DNA of 64,000 nt from Planctomycetota bacterium (lineage in GTDB: Bacteria; Planctomycetota; Planctomycetia; Pirellulales; Pirellulaceae), in contig JAPLNM010000035.1 of NCBI GenBank assembly GCA_026692845.1, positions 1 to 64,000 on the forward strand, read 5' to 3'. The notes beneath the pieces are model-generated. The model was not told the origin of the DNA. It saw only the letters and a list, made by a program, of their open reading frames with translations, and did not search any database. Shown here one piece after another: positions 55,518 to 63,600 of the stretch (position 1 is the stretch's first letter; each line of letters opens with the position of its first letter). The position numbers and the translations under genes are program-made.

Positions 55518-56390
55518 ATGTCAGAACACCTAGCCTTGAATACACCTGACGCATTTGGAAAACCAGGTTATTCTGAGGGGAATTTCGAAAACCCCAAGCT
55601 TTCACTACCCGCCATACCAGCCTTTGACATTCCAGAGGAACTGCGAGGAGAATTCATCGCTACTGGAGTTTTATCGACCCTCGAAGTACCTTCCTACCAC
55701 GACTGGAAACGCTTTTGGGAAGTCCCAACCGCGCTGGTCCTGGCAGTTCCAGCTTTGATGGTTACCGCCGTTCTGATCGTTTTGGTCAGACTAACGAGCA
55801 AAGGTCCAGGCATCTACCAGCAAGTCCGATCTGGAAAAGATGGCAAGGAATTCACGATGTACAAACTCCGCAGCATGCGTACCGATGCGGAGAAGAATGG
55901 TATCCAGTGGAGCACCGGCGACGCGGATCGTCGTATCACTCCCTTAGGCTATTGGCTCCGCAAGCTTCACCTTGACGAACTTCCCCAAATCATCAACGTC
56001 CTACGCGGCGAGATGTCTTTTTGCGGCCCAAGACCTGAACGACCACAATTCGTTTCAGAACTTGAAAAGTATGTTCCCTACTACCGGACCCGATTGGCCG
56101 TCCGTCCAGGAATTACCGGATTCGCCCAAATCAATTTGCCAGCCGATAGCGACACGGTTTCGGTGATGAAGAAACAAACGCTCGATCTGGACTACATCGA
56201 AGATGCTACACTCACGGCAGATCTGCGAATGGTCGGCTGCACGGCACTTAGACTCGTCGGAATTCCTGGCAAGGTCGCTACGAAAGTCGCCGGCTTGGTC
56301 AGAAGCCCTGAAGAGTCGAAATTCTCAAACCACTACATAGACCTCTGGCGAAAATGCGAGAGCGTTAAGAACCAAAGTTCTCAGAACTAG
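55518..56390 (+). CDS. Polyprenyl-phosphate sugar-1-phosphate transferase (EPS initiation)
   Basis: 290 aa from the ATG at 55518; an upstream GTG at 55467 would add 17 residues. A ~70-residue N-terminal extension precedes one hydrophobic helix (ALVLAVPALMVTAVLIVLVR, about 92-111), then the bacterial sugar transferase core: KGPGIYQQVRSGKDGKEFTM, YKLRSMRTDAEKNG, LDELPQIINVLRGEMSFCGPRPERP, and VRPGITGFAQIN. It lacks the multi-helix N-terminal half of WbaP/WcaJ-type enzymes, so it resembles the small monotopic form (PglC-like). It transfers a sugar phosphate to undecaprenyl phosphate. The next gene is a polysaccharide deacetylase. Inner membrane. Confidence 0.92.
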   Translation: MSEHLALNTPDAFGKPGYSEGNFENPKLSLPAIPAFDIPEELRGEFIATGVLSTLEVPSYHDWKRFWEVPTALVLAVPALMVTAVLIVLVRLTSKGPGIYQQVRSGKDGKEFTMYKLRSMRTDAEKNGIQWSTGDADRRITPLGYWLRKLHLDELPQIINVLRGEMSFCGPRPERPQFVSELEKYVPYYRTRLAVRPGITGFAQINLPADSDTVSVMKKQTLDLDYIEDATLTADLRMVGCTALRLVGIPGKVATKVAGLVRSPEESKFSNHYIDLWRKCESVKNQSSQN

Positions 56391-56394
56391 CGAG

Positions 56395-57276
56395 ATTTTC
56401 ATCGGAGTCCAAACGATTCGATCCGAACCCAAGCATATCTTCTCGATCGACGTTGAAGACTACTACCACGTTTCGAACTTTGACTCGATCTCATCTCGGG
56501 ATCGTTGGTCGGACTGGGAACAACGCGTCGAGACGAGCACCAACAGAATGCTCGATCTTCTAGAGCGCAAGTCCGTGAAATCCTATTGCTACTTTCTCGG
56601 CTGGGTAGCCGACAAGTATCCCGATCTGGTTCTCCGTGCGGTTGCCCAAGGCCACATTGTAGGGTCCCACACCTACTGGCACCGCATGATCCACCAACAT
56701 ACCCCCACCTCGCTCCATCTCGACCTGGGGATGGCAAACAATACTCTCTCGAAACTCACGAACTACCCAATACGCCACTTTCGTGCACCCACTTTTTCGA
56801 TCACCAAAAAATCTCCGTGGGCCCTGGCAATCCTAAAACAACATGGCTTCGAACACGACAGCAGTGTTGTGCCTGTGCGACACGATCGATACGGTATCCC
56901 GGATTCCCCTCTGGATTCCTATCTCCTCTGCGACGGCCAAGACCAAATAGCCGAACATCCCGTCAGCGTCCTAAAACTCCCCGGGGTCCGACTCCCCATC
57001 GGAGGAGGTGGCTACTTCAGAATCTTTCCATGGTGGTTCACTCGATGGGCCTTTCGTAAAATCGAACGATCCGGCCGCACCATCCACTTCTACATCCACC
57101 CTTGGGAAATCGACCCAGGCCAACCCGTCGCCGATCGACTCGGGACCCTCTCGCGTTTTCGCCACTACCGAAATCTCAATCGATGCTTCGATCGATTAGA
57201 ACGACTCTTCGATACGTTCTCCTTCGGAAATCTCGAACTTCCCAAACCCCAAGGAAGCTACTTGCTGGGCGGGTAA
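56395..57276 (+). CDS. XrtA-type polysaccharide deacetylase (DUF3473), start uncertain
   Basis: Open frame from 56341, with no ATG, GTG or TTG before the first ATG at 56548. However, the catalytic motif IDVEDYYHVSNFDS (56443-56484), the family's motif 1, lies upstream of that ATG. Translation must therefore start earlier, perhaps at ATT (56395), giving 293 aa, or an indel hides the start. The other NodB-like motifs are intact: HTYWH (zinc-binding H-x3-H), RHFRAPTFSI (motif 3 Arg) and the DUF3473 tail FYIHPWEIDPGQPV. The enzyme removes acetyl groups from an exopolysaccharide; its neighbour is the initiating transferase, 4 nt away by this reading. It converges with the protease gene and overlaps it by 19 nt. 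Confidence 0.8.
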   Translation: MFIGVQTIRSEPKHIFSIDVEDYYHVSNFDSISSRDRWSDWEQRVETSTNRMLDLLERKSVKSYCYFLGWVADKYPDLVLRAVAQGHIVGSHTYWHRMIHQHTPTSLHLDLGMANNTLSKLTNYPIRHFRAPTFSITKKSPWALAILKQHGFEHDSSVVPVRHDRYGIPDSPLDSYLLCDGQDQIAEHPVSVLKLPGVRLPIGGGGYFRIFPWWFTRWAFRKIERSGRTIHFYIHPWEIDPGQPVADRLGTLSRFRHYRNLNRCFDRLERLFDTFSFGNLELPKPQGSYLLGG

Positions 57277-58256
57277 AGTATCTCAGCGATCTGCGAAAAC
57301 AGTTTTTCCAGCTCCTCGTAGTACCGTACCGGTTCGATCGAATTTTTCTCGGCCCTCAAGTCTTCGAGTCGCTTCTCAAGTTGACCGATGAGGTTGCTCT
57401 GTTCGACCGATAACCCTTCCCGCTGAATTGGCTCCTTGAGCCATACCAACCTAGCCAACTCTCCATCGACGATTCCATTCTCGGGTCGCTTGATGCGTCG
57501 AAGGCCTCGATAGAAATCCGCAGGCGTTCCCTTGCCGTCGCCATTGTCGTCTAAGATCGCATGCTCGGTCGCTAACAACTTGTTATCCTCGTAGTAACGA
57601 TCCGTCTTGCGACTGGCCGATACAAATGCCTCCAAAACCGAGATGGCGTGGTCATGATCCAGATCCGAAGCCGGATCGCTGATGCTCTGAGCGAAAAACC
57701 CTCCAAATCGCGAAAAGTTCGACTCCGATCCACTCTTGGTCGATGTGATCACCACGCGCTTGGGATTCGATAAAACCGCCAAAAATGGTCCCGAACTAGA
57801 ACCGCAAACAGCGATCACCCAACGATGCTTCGATCCACTTAGCCATTGCCCAAGCTCCTGTGCCGACACGTCGGCACCTCGCATGTTGAACTTGGTCGTT
57901 TTGCCATCATGTGTCCCATGCCCCATCATCACCAGCCAATAAGTCCCCTCGTCGCTCATGTGCTCGACTCGCTCAATCCATTCCTTGAGCATCTCCCGGT
58001 CGCTTGCCCCACCTAAAACTCCCCCCTGTGCAGGGACATCCCGGCCTACCCACTGAACCTTCGTCCCGCGAGTCGACTCGGTCCAGCCCTGTGCCCACTC
58101 TTGGAACAACTTGCCATAGAGTGGCTCTCCGGGTGCCCCTAGAACCACGCACACACTTGGCGCCGACGCAGGCACCAACTCCTGGCCCAACAACGCCCCA
58201 GGCTTGAAACCAACCAAAAGAACCCATCCAACCAAAACTCGCTTAGGCCAATCCAT
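57258..58256 (-). CDS. Clan CD (caspase/legumain C13-like) secreted cysteine protease
   Basis: A 332-aa protein. A signal peptide covers about residues 6-24 (RVLVGWVLLVGFKPGALLGQ). The caspase-type fold shows the His-Gly signature VMMGHGTHDG, with His113. The second signature is WVIAVCGSSSGPFL, where Cys151 is the likely nucleophile. LGGASDREMLKEWIERV and HAILDDNGDGKGTP are also family-like. Its substrate is unknown. It overlaps the VWA gene by 14 nt at its start, so it is translated with it, and converges with the deacetylase, overlapping 19 nt at the 3' end. Confidence 0.82.
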   Translation of the reverse strand: MDWPKRVLVGWVLLVGFKPGALLGQELVPASAPSVCVVLGAPGEPLYGKLFQEWAQGWTESTRGTKVQWVGRDVPAQGGVLGGASDREMLKEWIERVEHMSDEGTYWLVMMGHGTHDGKTTKFNMRGADVSAQELGQWLSGSKHRWVIAVCGSSSGPFLAVLSNPKRVVITSTKSGSESNFSRFGGFFAQSISDPASDLDHDHAISVLEAFVSASRKTDRYYEDNKLLATEHAILDDNGDGKGTPADFYRGLRRIKRPENGIVDGELARLVWLKEPIQREGLSVEQSNLIGQLEKRLEDLRAEKNSIEPVRYYEELEKLFSQIAEILYPPSK

Positions 58257-60624
58257 GTCGTCGCCTCCACCACCACTCAGCAGCTAAACAAAATACAGCC
58301 ATTCCAAGCAACCATGGAGTGTGCCAAAGCGGTGAGGTTCGCTGCTCGGTAAACTGCAATCGACCTACAGGAATTTTCGCAATAAGCGTATCTAGCGAGT
58401 CAGAGCGGATCAGCGTGCCGCCACTGGATTGGGCCAAGTCTCGTAAACGGTCTTCATCGACGCTGCAATCGGCTAACTCGATCGCCTCGGGCTCATAGAC
58501 AAAGGCTGACTGCGCCTGGCCAACGAGATTCCCCTCTGGACTTCGAGCTTCGGCCTCCACGCGATAAACTCCAGAGCGACGCATCAGAAAACTGGTTTCA
58601 TAAACCCCTGCAGATTCCAACGATGCGACCCCCTTGACCTCGATCGTCTCGCCACCCTCAGGGGGTAAAATCCGAACCTCCACAGAGGCATTGTCCATCG
58701 CCAAATACTTTTCGTCTCGCACCGTTACCTCAATCAATCGCTTGGTGTTCTGAACCAAATCCAAACGCCCTGTCATCTCCACACGCCTCGGGATGTCGAC
58801 CATCAACCCTCGAACGATTTGCCTCCAAGATTGATAAAACGGACTGACGCTCTCTTGGCGATGCATCATCGCCCAGCGCCACAAGTCACCGAGGAGGACC
58901 GCTCCGGTCTGTCCTCTCCCGAATTTCTGAACCACAAGCAGCGGGGCCTTCGATCCATCCTGCAATGGCCCCTCGACCAGAATCCTTGCACCCGCTTTTA
59001 CCTCCACCGTGCGATTCCAAACCTCAAAAGATGGCATTTGCTCAAGGCGTTTGGATTCGTCTGCCTCGTTGTCTTGCACTCGCAAGTACGGCAACAACCA
59101 ACCCTCTCGCGTAAGCTGATATCGGATCGCTCCCTCAGAGGGTTGTTCAATCTCTGGAACAAACTTTTCCGGTTCCGTCGGATCGCCATACACCGGCAGG
59201 AGTTGGCCTAGCACGGAATCCCGAAACCCACGACCTCGCATGCTCTCCTGGCCTCCGAGCATTAACAAGGTCCCTCCCCTAAGGGATACAAACTGCCTCA
59301 AAAGCTGCATTTGATCGACGCTGAAAAATTCCGTTTCTAAATCGTCGAGGATGATCATCGAATAGGCATAAAGCTCTGAAGCATCCTTGGGAAAACCCTT
59401 CGTTAGCTCCTCTTTACCTAGCACACCCAATCTCGCAAATACCGGCTCGTCGTACTTCTCTTTCTCTTCCTCCGAAACATCCTCAAACCCAGAAAACAAC
59501 GGATTACTGTCCTCGGTCCCCTTGCTGCGAAAACTGAATTTCGGCTGCCTTTTTGCAATCCTAATCAAAGCCGTTAACGCCAACTCGGCGTCTTGACTCA
59601 AGGCCCTTTGGAGGAACTTGTACTCCCAATTGGGCCTGCCCGAAAGGTACAGGATCCTATAAGGCCCCATCGTCCGATCGACCGCTACATACCGGTGGTT
59701 GTTCTCTAAGGTCATCTCCCGTCCGGGGATTTCTCGCGAAGAACGACACTCGACCTTGTAACCTTGGGGTCCAATCTCCTTAGGCCGAAACTGAAACCGT
59801 ACCACCGATGGCTTGCCCGATGCGTCGAGCTCGATCGTCTGCTTCTGCAATACGACTTGATCAAGTCCCTCCAAATGCACATCGATCCGTTCGGACGGGA
59901 AACCTCGATGGCCAATACTCGCAACAATCGTTACCGGAGCGGTTTCAAAGTCGCTGGTCTGAACACTCACGTCCTGAATCCATAAATCCCGCTTCTGATC
60001 CCCTTGCGTCGGTACCAACACCGGAAAAATAGGGATGCCCTTGAATAGACTCCCTTGGGATTGCAAACTTTCAGCCTTTTGGGTGCTTCTGCCATCGGTA
60101 ATGAGCACGATCCCCGCCGGCGGTTCGGTCGGATAACGCTCCTTGAGACTCACAATGGCCCCTTCGATATTGGATTGGTACTCCGTACCATCCCATTGAC
60201 TCAATTGCTCTACCGATCGAATCTGTCCCCCAAAAAGATACTTTTTTACGCGGTACTCGGCTCCCAGTTCACTCAACCAACTGGCCTCATCGGCGATCAT
60301 CCCCGCAAACGACGGAACCAACCGACCCTCCTCAGACGGGTCCTGGGTATACAAAGCCTTCATCGAACGGCTGTTATCGACAAGCACCGCTATCGTGTTG
60401 GCTTGGGATTTCGGTACGGTCAGACTGCGGGTTGGCTCCAAAAGACAAAAACACAAAATGCCCAAGCCGATGGCTCGAAGTAGCGTCCCTATCCATCGAG
60501 CCCTTAGCCCTGCCGCTTCACGGTAGGAGAACCATGTAGCGACCGTAAATGCAACCCACATCAAGATCGCTAGCGGTAACCAAGCGGCTTTGGCAAAGAC
60601 AAGACCATCGAGCAAATCGATCAC
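58243..60624 (-). CDS. Membrane VWA / glutamine amidotransferase-like protein
   Basis: A 793-aa protein. Two N-terminal membrane helices (about 14-32 and 45-60, AILMWVAFTVATWFSY and IGLGILCFCLLEP) precede a VWA domain with MIDAS-type IAVLVDNSRSMK at about 81-92. Residues about 340-620 show ILYLSGRPNWEYKFLQRAL, then YSMIILDDLE and RGGTLLMLGGQESMRGRG, resembling the type 1 GATase-like/DUF4159 fold, without the catalytic Cys-His-Glu being evident. A C-terminal membrane helix (LLGMAVFCLAAEWWW) ends the protein. Genes of this type pair with MoxR, DUF58 and DUF4175 proteins in planctomycetes. It overlaps DUF4175 by ATGA and the protease by 14 nt. Confidence 0.85.
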   Translation of the reverse strand: MIDLLDGLVFAKAAWLPLAILMWVAFTVATWFSYREAAGLRARWIGTLLRAIGLGILCFCLLEPTRSLTVPKSQANTIAVLVDNSRSMKALYTQDPSEEGRLVPSFAGMIADEASWLSELGAEYRVKKYLFGGQIRSVEQLSQWDGTEYQSNIEGAIVSLKERYPTEPPAGIVLITDGRSTQKAESLQSQGSLFKGIPIFPVLVPTQGDQKRDLWIQDVSVQTSDFETAPVTIVASIGHRGFPSERIDVHLEGLDQVVLQKQTIELDASGKPSVVRFQFRPKEIGPQGYKVECRSSREIPGREMTLENNHRYVAVDRTMGPYRILYLSGRPNWEYKFLQRALSQDAELALTALIRIAKRQPKFSFRSKGTEDSNPLFSGFEDVSEEEKEKYDEPVFARLGVLGKEELTKGFPKDASELYAYSMIILDDLETEFFSVDQMQLLRQFVSLRGGTLLMLGGQESMRGRGFRDSVLGQLLPVYGDPTEPEKFVPEIEQPSEGAIRYQLTREGWLLPYLRVQDNEADESKRLEQMPSFEVWNRTVEVKAGARILVEGPLQDGSKAPLLVVQKFGRGQTGAVLLGDLWRWAMMHRQESVSPFYQSWRQIVRGLMVDIPRRVEMTGRLDLVQNTKRLIEVTVRDEKYLAMDNASVEVRILPPEGGETIEVKGVASLESAGVYETSFLMRRSGVYRVEAEARSPEGNLVGQAQSAFVYEPEAIELADCSVDEDRLRDLAQSSGGTLIRSDSLDTLIAKIPVGRLQFTEQRTSPLWHTPWLLGMAVFCLAAEWWWRRRHGLA

Positions 60625-63600
60625 TTGGTTTGTTCTCCCCCCAAGCGTTCGAAATACCGATCCAGCTCCGATCGGAAGCGTTCTGGTACCGGATCCCGAT
60701 CCAAGGGCACCAACTCATTCTCCTTGGCCGTCTTGCGAACCAACTCCTCTTGCACGCGTCGCTGCAAATCCTGCAAAGGATTGGAGATCATCTTCTTGAC
60801 CAACTCCCATTGCGGCTCCTTCGAATGCCGCTTGTACTCCCTACGGAAATCACGGGCAGCCTCGCGCACTCGCGCAGCCTCTGCCTTCAATTCCGGATCT
60901 CGAACCAACTCCTCAATATCCCGAAGCCGGTCGGTCCACTGCGCGTAGTCTTGACCCATCAACGGTAAACTCGAATCCAACCCTCCTCGGCCTGCTGCTC
61001 GCTGCATCCGCTCCCCGAGCTGATCGAGCGCTGAGCGTGCGGAAGGCTCGCGACCTCCCGAGGAAGTTCGACCTTCGCGGGGCTGACCTTCGCGGGGCTG
61101 GCCTTCGCGGGGCTGGCCTTCGCGGGGCTGCAGCGTATTGGCTTCTTGCGAACTGTCCGGTCCGGCACGCTGCTCGATCTCGTTTTCGATCGCTCGGTTG
61201 GCCTGATCAATCTCCTTAAGTGCGCGACGCAACGATTCCTCCTCGGAACCAAGCACGCTTTGGGTCGAGTTCTGAATACGCTCCCTAAGTATTTGCAGAT
61301 CCTTGGCGACTTCCCCAGATTCCTCGACTGCTGGTTGATCCATCCCTCGCTCGATCATCATGGGGATCCGATCCAGGCGTTGCTCGGTCGGCAAACGGCT
61401 CGCATCCCTATAAGTCTCAAACAACTGTTCAGCCAGAAGCGGTTCGCTTCCTTCGGCCTGTTCGACGGTCTGCTTGATTCGGTCCAACAGATCGACATAT
61501 TGCGCCTTCTGTTCCTTCCAATCCTCAAGGTTCCCACTCTTGGGCATGTCTCCCTTTTGGGCCAATTCGGCGTCGCTGCGCAGTAACGACTGTCGTCGTG
61601 GTTCGGTGGCCTCTGGTCCGTTGGGATCAGCCTGCGGTTCCCTCGGTGGCAGATTCGCTTGCTCGCGCAGCTGGCGTTCCAATTCGGTTTGGTTTTGGGC
61701 GATGCTCTGGGCTTGCTCGACCAACTGCTGGACATCCCTTCGAAGCGATTCGGAACTTTGCTCTCTGAGTTGCTCGCGTGTTTGATCGACTCTTTGCTGT
61801 GCGCGTGTTCCTGAGTTCAAGGCTGCCGAGGGTTGGGAATCTCGCAATTGACGCTCGGATTGCTGCATTTGTTCGCGAGCGTTTTCGATCTGTTGACGTG
61901 ATTCCTCAAGTGCGTTTCGCGACTCAGGATCGTTCATCCGTTCAAGCAATTCGTCTGCATCTTGTACAAGCTCCTGCTGGTTCTCTCGCAATTGATCCAA
62001 GCGCTCCTGAAGTTCCTTCCTCTCCTGTTGGTCTTTGGCCGATTGCAGTGCTAAGTCCAATTCCCGTATTTGCTCGTTGAGATCCTCTTGACGGCGCGCA
62101 AGTTCATCGAGGCGATTCATCACTTGGCGCATTTCTTGATCCGATTTTGACGCTTCGGTCATGGGTTGCGATTCTTCCTCGTACCGGCTCGGATCTTGTT
62201 CGAGTTGCAGTTGCTGTATCTGTTGCTGTCGATTCCGCTGAGAAGCCGATTGAGACTGCTGGCTAGAGGATTGCTGTTGCTGACTTTGCGATACCTCATG
62301 CTCGCGCGCTCGCAGTCGCAGTAGCCCTTCATAAGCTCCCCGCATCTGCTTGATCGCACCCCGCAGTGCCACGGCAGGTGTATCCGATCTTGCTTGGTTC
62401 AATTCGACGATCGCCTCGCGCATGGCCGATTGGATTTTGAGCAAATCCTGGGCAGCATTCGGAGCTTGCAATTGCTCTTTCAATGCCTCGGTTTGCCCGA
62501 GGGCCTGATTCTGGGATTCCAAGAGTATCGGAACCTGTTCCTGGGTGATTCGGGAGGAATCCTGGTTGGATTTAGACAATCCACGGAGCAGGTTCCAAGT
62601 CGCCGAGAGGACTTTCTTTTGTAGTTCTGCCAATTCCTCGGCTTGCTGGGCCGATTCCGAGCCCTGCTGTTGCTGCTGTTGTTGTTGCCGTTGTTGGGTC
62701 GCCGACGCATCTCCTTCGCGAAACAGCTCCTCAAAAGGACGAACTTCCGCGAAAAACATTTCGCTATCAATCCGCCTCGGTTGGCCATCACGATCGAGGT
62801 CTTCCGTCCAAAAATGGTAGGTAACCAATTGATCCGCTTTGGCTTGGAGTGATTCCAGGTCGATCAAATGCTGCAGCTCCGTTTTTTTCTTCGCAAATGG
62901 ATCCGTCGCTCTGAGCTCAATTTCCGACGGTTCACTATCACCGACAGATACATGAATACCAGCTCGATGGATTCCAAAATCGTCCTGCACTCTAGCCCCG
63001 ACGATCATCTCTTGGATCGGCGAAACGCGCTGATCGACTGCCGAGATCAACTTGAGTTCGGGTTCCCGATTGGGGATGATTTTGACGACGAACTCTTCGG
63101 ATGTTTTTTCGGTCCGTCCTTGAGCGTCGGTCAACTTCAGCCGGTAACGCATCGATTCCCTGGGAGCATTCGGAATCGAGTATTGCGTTGGGTTCTGCGC
63201 ATTTTCTTCCAACAGGGTGCTTTGTCCGTTTTCGTCGATCCATTCGGCCGATGCAACCGACTTATTGAGCTTGAGACTCCATAGGATTTTCGCCCCATCG
63301 ACGATCGAGACACGTCGTGTGTTGGAAATCGTCCTTTCGTCCTGCCGAGCATAGGCCGGTGATTGGATCGAAGCGTCGCTTTGGACCACCGCAGGATACT
63401 CGAAGATTCCAACTTCAAAGCTCTCGCTACTTTTCGCGATGCTCTCGATGCGATAGCGAAGTGGTTCCTTGACCTTTCGTATCGTCGCACTTGCGATCGG
63501 ATCGCGTAAACTTCGCTGCATGCTCACGGTTTGGGATTCCCCGCTGGGGGTTTCCAAAATGAGCTGCAGGTTATCAGCAAAGTCGTCTTGGAAACGCACA

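Follow-up and report, generated by a model that had tools for sequence, protein, structure and literature searches.

A conserved AUU codon as the most likely start of an XrtA-type polysaccharide deacetylase gene in a group of planctomycetes

The window analysed here, a stretch of 64,000 nucleotides from contig JAPLNM010000035.1 of a Planctomycetota bacterium (assembly GCA_026692845.1), carries a polysaccharide deacetylase gene with no ATG, GTG or TTG in frame 5' of its conserved N-terminal motif. This most likely reflects a genuine and conserved AUU start in what is otherwise an ordinary enzyme gene, and the comparison of related sequences makes us quite confident that fMet initiation takes place at AUU 56416-56418, with guidance from a GGAG located 8 nt 5' of it, on an intact gene of the XrtA type (Table 1). 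A base error, a frameshift or a pseudogene seems unlikely here. Judging from the genomes compared, the ATT start appears to belong to a small freshwater group of planctomycetes within one genus, the Pirellula clade.

Table 1. Features of the deacetylase locus, in window coordinates.
Feature	Position	Strand	Basis
Upstream gene, bacterial sugar transferase	55518..56390	+	PF02397, 177.2 bits (Pfam); stop TAG 56388-56390
Shine-Dalgarno core GGAG, 8 nt 5' of ATT	56404..56407	+	Same place in 6/6 close genomes
Proposed start codon ATT (AUU)	56416..56418	+	ATT in 5/6 close genomes, coding border
Predicted deacetylase CDS, 286 aa, XrtA-system polysaccharide deacetylase with DUF3473	56416..57276	+	TIGR03006, PF11959, PF01522
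N-terminal motif IDVEDYYHVSNFDS	56446..56487	+	Translation
ATG, first canonical in-frame codon, read as internal Met	56548..56550	+	Same place in 6/6 genomes
HTYWH, an H[ST]xxH metal motif	56668..56682	+	Aligns with HTYSH of peptidoglycan deacetylase 5o6y

The deacetylase frame follows an in-frame TAG (56338-56340), is open from 56341 and ends at 57276. An earlier note on this DNA had rightly described the open frame, an ATT at 56395, the ATG at 56548 as the first in-frame canonical codon and the motif IDVEDYYHVSNFDS 5' of any canonical start, although the place that it gave for the motif, 56443-56484, is 3 nt off. Positions are counted below from 56440, the F preceding SIDVEDYY (position 0), which puts ATT 56416 at -24. 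The near-cognate codons in frame 5' of the motif are ATT 56395, the only one mentioned in the earlier note, ATC 56401, ATT 56416 and ATC 56437, and from -86 to +13 the window contains no ATG, GTG or TTG in any of the frames. The product read from ATT 56416 scores 300.4 bits against TIGR03006 (cut-off 276.2) and spans profile positions 3-267 of 272; PF01522 (Polysacc_deac_1) is matched with 66.4 bits by the product read from 56395 (Pfam cut-off 23.1), and PF11959 (DUF3473) is matched as well. HTYWH presumably has a metal role, and one D of IDVED may be the catalytic Asp of CE4 motif 1. The PDB matches start 3' of the IDVED motif, at query residue 39 or later, and relative positions 0-45 show zero non-synonymous changes in the five genomes compared. 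Judged by its sequence, this is an intact polysaccharide deacetylase gene of the XrtA type.

The upstream sugar transferase also scores 226.5 bits against TIGR03025, which is below the cut-off of 295.55. In four genomes, 28 nt separate its stop from the ATT; in L048 the distance is 14 nt, and the TAG at -38 runs into the GGAG (TAGGAG); in L050 the stop lies 16 nt 5' of an AGT codon that stands in place of the ATT. Compared with the others, L048 carries a one-base indel just 5' of -39, which alters the relative frame of the two genes.

Five relatives were close enough for a detailed comparison (L046, L047, L048, L050 and L051, from genomes G010, G019, G001, G013 and G017, respectively). By title, all but one of the six are MAGs, and the genome of the window is in 182 contigs, points that count somewhat against the AUU start. 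From -39 onward all six are in gapless register, and the distance to the stop does not differ between them (278 codons). ATT with GGAG at 8 nt is found in the window, L046, L047, L051 and L048; in the tree, L050 groups with these five genes (100/99), the branching order of L050 and L048 not being separated. The earlier note had reasoned that a canonical start at this position in relatives would reveal a base error: none of the five nearest has one there, and four have ATT.

The start can be located at 56416 because three features coincide there. (i), a coding border: between ATT and 56548, the window differs from all five relatives with a pN of only 0.05-0.08 for a pS of 0.42-0.82, while 5' of ATT, in the deacetylase frame, pN/pS is 0.29/0.24 for L046, 0.27/0.11 for L051, 0.31/0.31 for L047 and 0.52/0.45 for L050, so that, on these figures, there is no sign of coding 5' of ATT in the four in-register relatives. 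Against L050, the codons from -99 to -45 are 2 same, 1 synonymous and 15 non-synonymous. L048 was left out of this upstream comparison, being in register only from -39 on, and its figures 5' of that point (0 same, 1 synonymous and 17 non-synonymous codons; 16/59 bases identical; pN 0.60, pS 0.80) were not used. On the other side of the border, from -21 to 0, the window and L048 have 3 same, 4 synonymous and 0 non-synonymous codons, and of the 21 bases 3' of ATT 17 are identical, the four changed codons all being synonymous. (ii), a Shine-Dalgarno core: between the window and L048 the spacer separating it from ATT is identical at 2 of 8 bases only, as against 4/4 for GGAG and 3/3 for ATT. In a single genome the GGAG would not be decisive, because 1.9% of the internal ATH codons in frame (47 of 2507) also have one 5-10 nt 5' of them. 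(iii), a special codon: ATT is a minority Ile codon of this gene (13 of 93 Ile codons, five genomes pooled), and none of the 14 invariant-Ile columns is ATT throughout; five of the 14 have one codon in all five genomes, ATC in each. Local RNA folding around the start showed nothing unusual (z 1.01 and 0.09).

Protein searches matched 33 of 60 related genomes (our own included), 16 of the 27 of the genus and 81 of the 199 of the family, each tally including some weak matches that may be other deacetylases. Among the loci returned by the searches, which represent a subset of the matching genomes, 25/30 have an in-frame canonical codon at most 40 codons 5' of the motif, a weak criterion as some such codons will be present by chance, and 5/30 have none (L001, which is the window, and L002-L005, four relatives of the same genus). 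Such a codon is present at all 20 of the further loci, one of which (L138) coincides with L026, and an in-frame canonical start is also present in L042, on a second contig of G011. L042 and L007, on contigs C703 and C672 of that genome, have near-identical deacetylase N termini, which suggests mixed strains or a duplicate. Separately, the distant deacetylases L021, L023 and L029 of the same genus (genomes G020, G023 and G007) lie in an open frame some 600 codons long, which may represent a fusion to a domain further 5'.

Some observations count against the AUU start. At the ATT position L050 carries AGT, yet it has a longer Shine-Dalgarno sequence, AAAGGAG, 8 nt from the AGT codon, and an in-frame GTG 30 nt further 5', at -54. 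The ATT is dispensable, to judge from this sequence; in L050 the GTG at -54 may serve as the start, and the ACG at -27 is a less likely one. In L046, L047 and L051 the frame is open up to an in-frame TTG 159 nt further 5', making a long N-terminal extension from this far TTG formally possible in these three genomes; in the window and L048, in-frame stops (at -102 and -84, respectively) rule out a far-upstream canonical start.

The earlier note had the right kind of start, a non-canonical ATT, and placed it at 56395; the likeliest position is 21 nt further 3', at 56416. The codon at 56395 is AAC in L046, AAT in L051, CAC in L047, ATC in L048 and AGG in L050, in a fast-changing stretch where non-synonymous change is frequent, and it was rejected. 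It is unlikely that another near-cognate nearby, ATC 56401 or ACG 56413, is the start. The codon at -39 is ATC or, in L048, ATA in five of the six genomes, and that at -27 is ACG in five of six, L050 included; but the ACG is TCG in L048, the window's ATC 56401 has no Shine-Dalgarno core at the usual distance 5', and the GTC CAA that the window group has at -33 and -30 is GAA GCT in L048, two non-synonymous changes. Initiation at ATG 56548, which automatic calling restricted to ATG, GTG and TTG would choose, as the earlier note foresaw, would yield a 242-residue protein stripped of the N-terminal motif. The conservation of this ATG in all six genomes would suit such a start, but purifying selection acts strongly, in the deacetylase frame, on the 44 codons between ATT and 56548, and the shorter product, which begins at profile position 39, reaches 252.4 bits against TIGR03006, less than the cut-off, all of which makes this reading very improbable.

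We give just as little credit to a fusion protein made by ribosomes that shift frame while translating the sugar transferase gene. The two open frames do overlap 5' of the sugar transferase stop in all six genomes, but the shift, also put forward in the earlier note, would have to go by +1 in five of the genomes but by -1 in L048; the sugar transferase stops lie at -52, -38 and -40, no common slippery sequence is seen in the alignment by eye, the overlap evolves rapidly when read in the deacetylase frame, and a canonical start is present in more distant relatives. Least credible of all is an assembly artefact, whether a wrong base or an indel. The window does come from a draft of 182 contigs, but ATT, Shine-Dalgarno core and register are identical in four other assemblies (QWPJ, JAJTEK, JAJTFB and JAJTFC, the last three of which look like one project), and the gapless register and equal length of the six genes contradict the suggestion of an indel; moreover, a single indel would give no close canonical start, since none exists in any frame from -86 to +13. 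Coupling to the preceding gene, a further suggestion of the earlier note, is possible given the distance of the upstream stop (28 or 14 nt), but a start codon would still be needed. The AUU at 56416 thus stays our preferred start.

How does such a start fit the translation machinery of the lineage? The 16S genes of relatives end in ...GGATCACCTCCTTTCT (9 loci), the CCUCC of which is complementary to GGAG, so that the anti-Shine-Dalgarno sequence is present in the genus; no 16S match was found in the genome of the window itself. Any Shine-Dalgarno core at -18 to -3 was seen at 5 of 38 unambiguous starts (234 kb) and GGAG at 5-10 nt at two of the 38, in a rough set whose only selection criteria were ORF length and start spacing, and small fractions of Shine-Dalgarno genes are reported for Planctomycetes in an excerpt of PMC5397173. 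The infC gene served as a control and was found in 23 of 27 genomes, with a readable start in 22 (L079 being the exception). Our own infC (L071; G000 C131:15613-16104, minus strand) has AAGGAG, 7 nt and ATC, with no canonical in-frame start near the conserved N terminus. Like L071, L069, L070 and L057 have no in-frame ATG, GTG or TTG before the conserved N terminus, and AAGGAG or AAAGGAG stands 7 nt from ATC in these four; L058 shares the site and has one in-frame TTG far upstream. Other genus members have the same ATC, some of them with canonical codons upstream and longer open frames. From this survey, the lineage probably uses AUH starts with a Shine-Dalgarno sequence in infC, like other bacteria. 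A subgroup (L059, L060, L062 and L072) lacks the ATC and has an earlier ATT, maybe the start, with AAGGAG-TTTTTT-ATT in three of the four. G011, for its part, has an ATG both in infC (L068, just 5' of the ATC) and in its deacetylase (L007), its near relatives having AUH or other starts.

A simple scheme may be suggested. The AUU at 56416 would be read as an fMet start under the guidance of GGAG, yielding the 286-residue deacetylase, and ribosomes that finish the sugar transferase may re-initiate there, so that AUU initiation is perhaps coupled to translation of that gene. As AUU is a weak codon, synthesis would be low and sensitive to IF3, by analogy with measured AUU, AUA and GUC starts, and the deacetylase is probably weakly translated. 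It is tempting to go further and speculate, with considerable doubt, that in the Pirellula clade an exopolysaccharide deacetylase has come under an infC-like, IF3-sensitive control of AUH starts, such that polymer deacetylation would track the condition of the initiation machinery and stay at a level far lower than that of the sugar transferase encoded just 5'.

The start was located by comparative genomics alone, in a genome sample where Shine-Dalgarno cores are rare, and the coding-border method could list further hidden AUH starts across genomes. Gene finders that accept only ATG, GTG and TTG shorten such genes, here at the cost of the N-terminal motif. When 100 kb of the same contig were screened for non-canonical starts, 9 of 20 ORFs with a G001 homologue of at least 50% identity were flagged, the deacetylase included. 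Two of the other eight were inspected: an FGGY-family kinase was a false alarm, with an ATG at the domain start, and in the second ORF (window 58243-60714) the upstream extension is interrupted by a stop in the frame of G001.

Genes with AUU, AUC or AUA starts are already known, and the deacetylase would be a conserved new member of this set. According to PMC5472188, experimental characterisation exists for very few non-canonical starts, and the papers found by our literature searches do not mention, in title or abstract opening, a Pirellula gene or a deacetylase that starts with ATT. One of the closest cases is infC, which starts with ATT in E. coli, ATC in Streptomyces and AUA in S. aureus (PMC5472188 and PMC13009471, in part). 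Like the deacetylase it has an AUH start, with a similar Shine-Dalgarno architecture in our own genome; however, infC encodes the very factor, IF3, that represses such starts, whereas the deacetylase has no feedback role and its ATT is seen only in a small clade. The E. coli pcnB gene, whose AUU start is described as limiting expression in a reference title of PMC13009471, is likewise an enzyme gene, albeit for an unrelated enzyme in an unrelated organism. In S. aureus, cvfC1 (AUU) and ccpN (AUA) combine, as the deacetylase does, a conserved non-canonical start with a Shine-Dalgarno sequence; they gave about 10% of the AUG output in poor medium, and reporters with AUU and AUA starts yielded less than AUG (sections of PMC13009471). 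These two were measured by ribosome profiling and reporters, whereas the deacetylase is known by comparison alone and has a shorter Shine-Dalgarno sequence. The sigR gene of Streptomyces likewise has a rare start, missed by annotation, within an operon (a putative one in the case of the deacetylase), but its codon is GTC and its repression by IF3 has been demonstrated (PMC5472188, in part); re-initiation 3' of an upstream stop is aided by a Shine-Dalgarno sequence, as an extract of PMC2268962 states. Finally, other TIGR03006 deacetylases are alike over nearly the full length and, unlike the window gene, have a canonical codon within 40 codons of the motif at 25/30 and 20/20 of the loci counted above.
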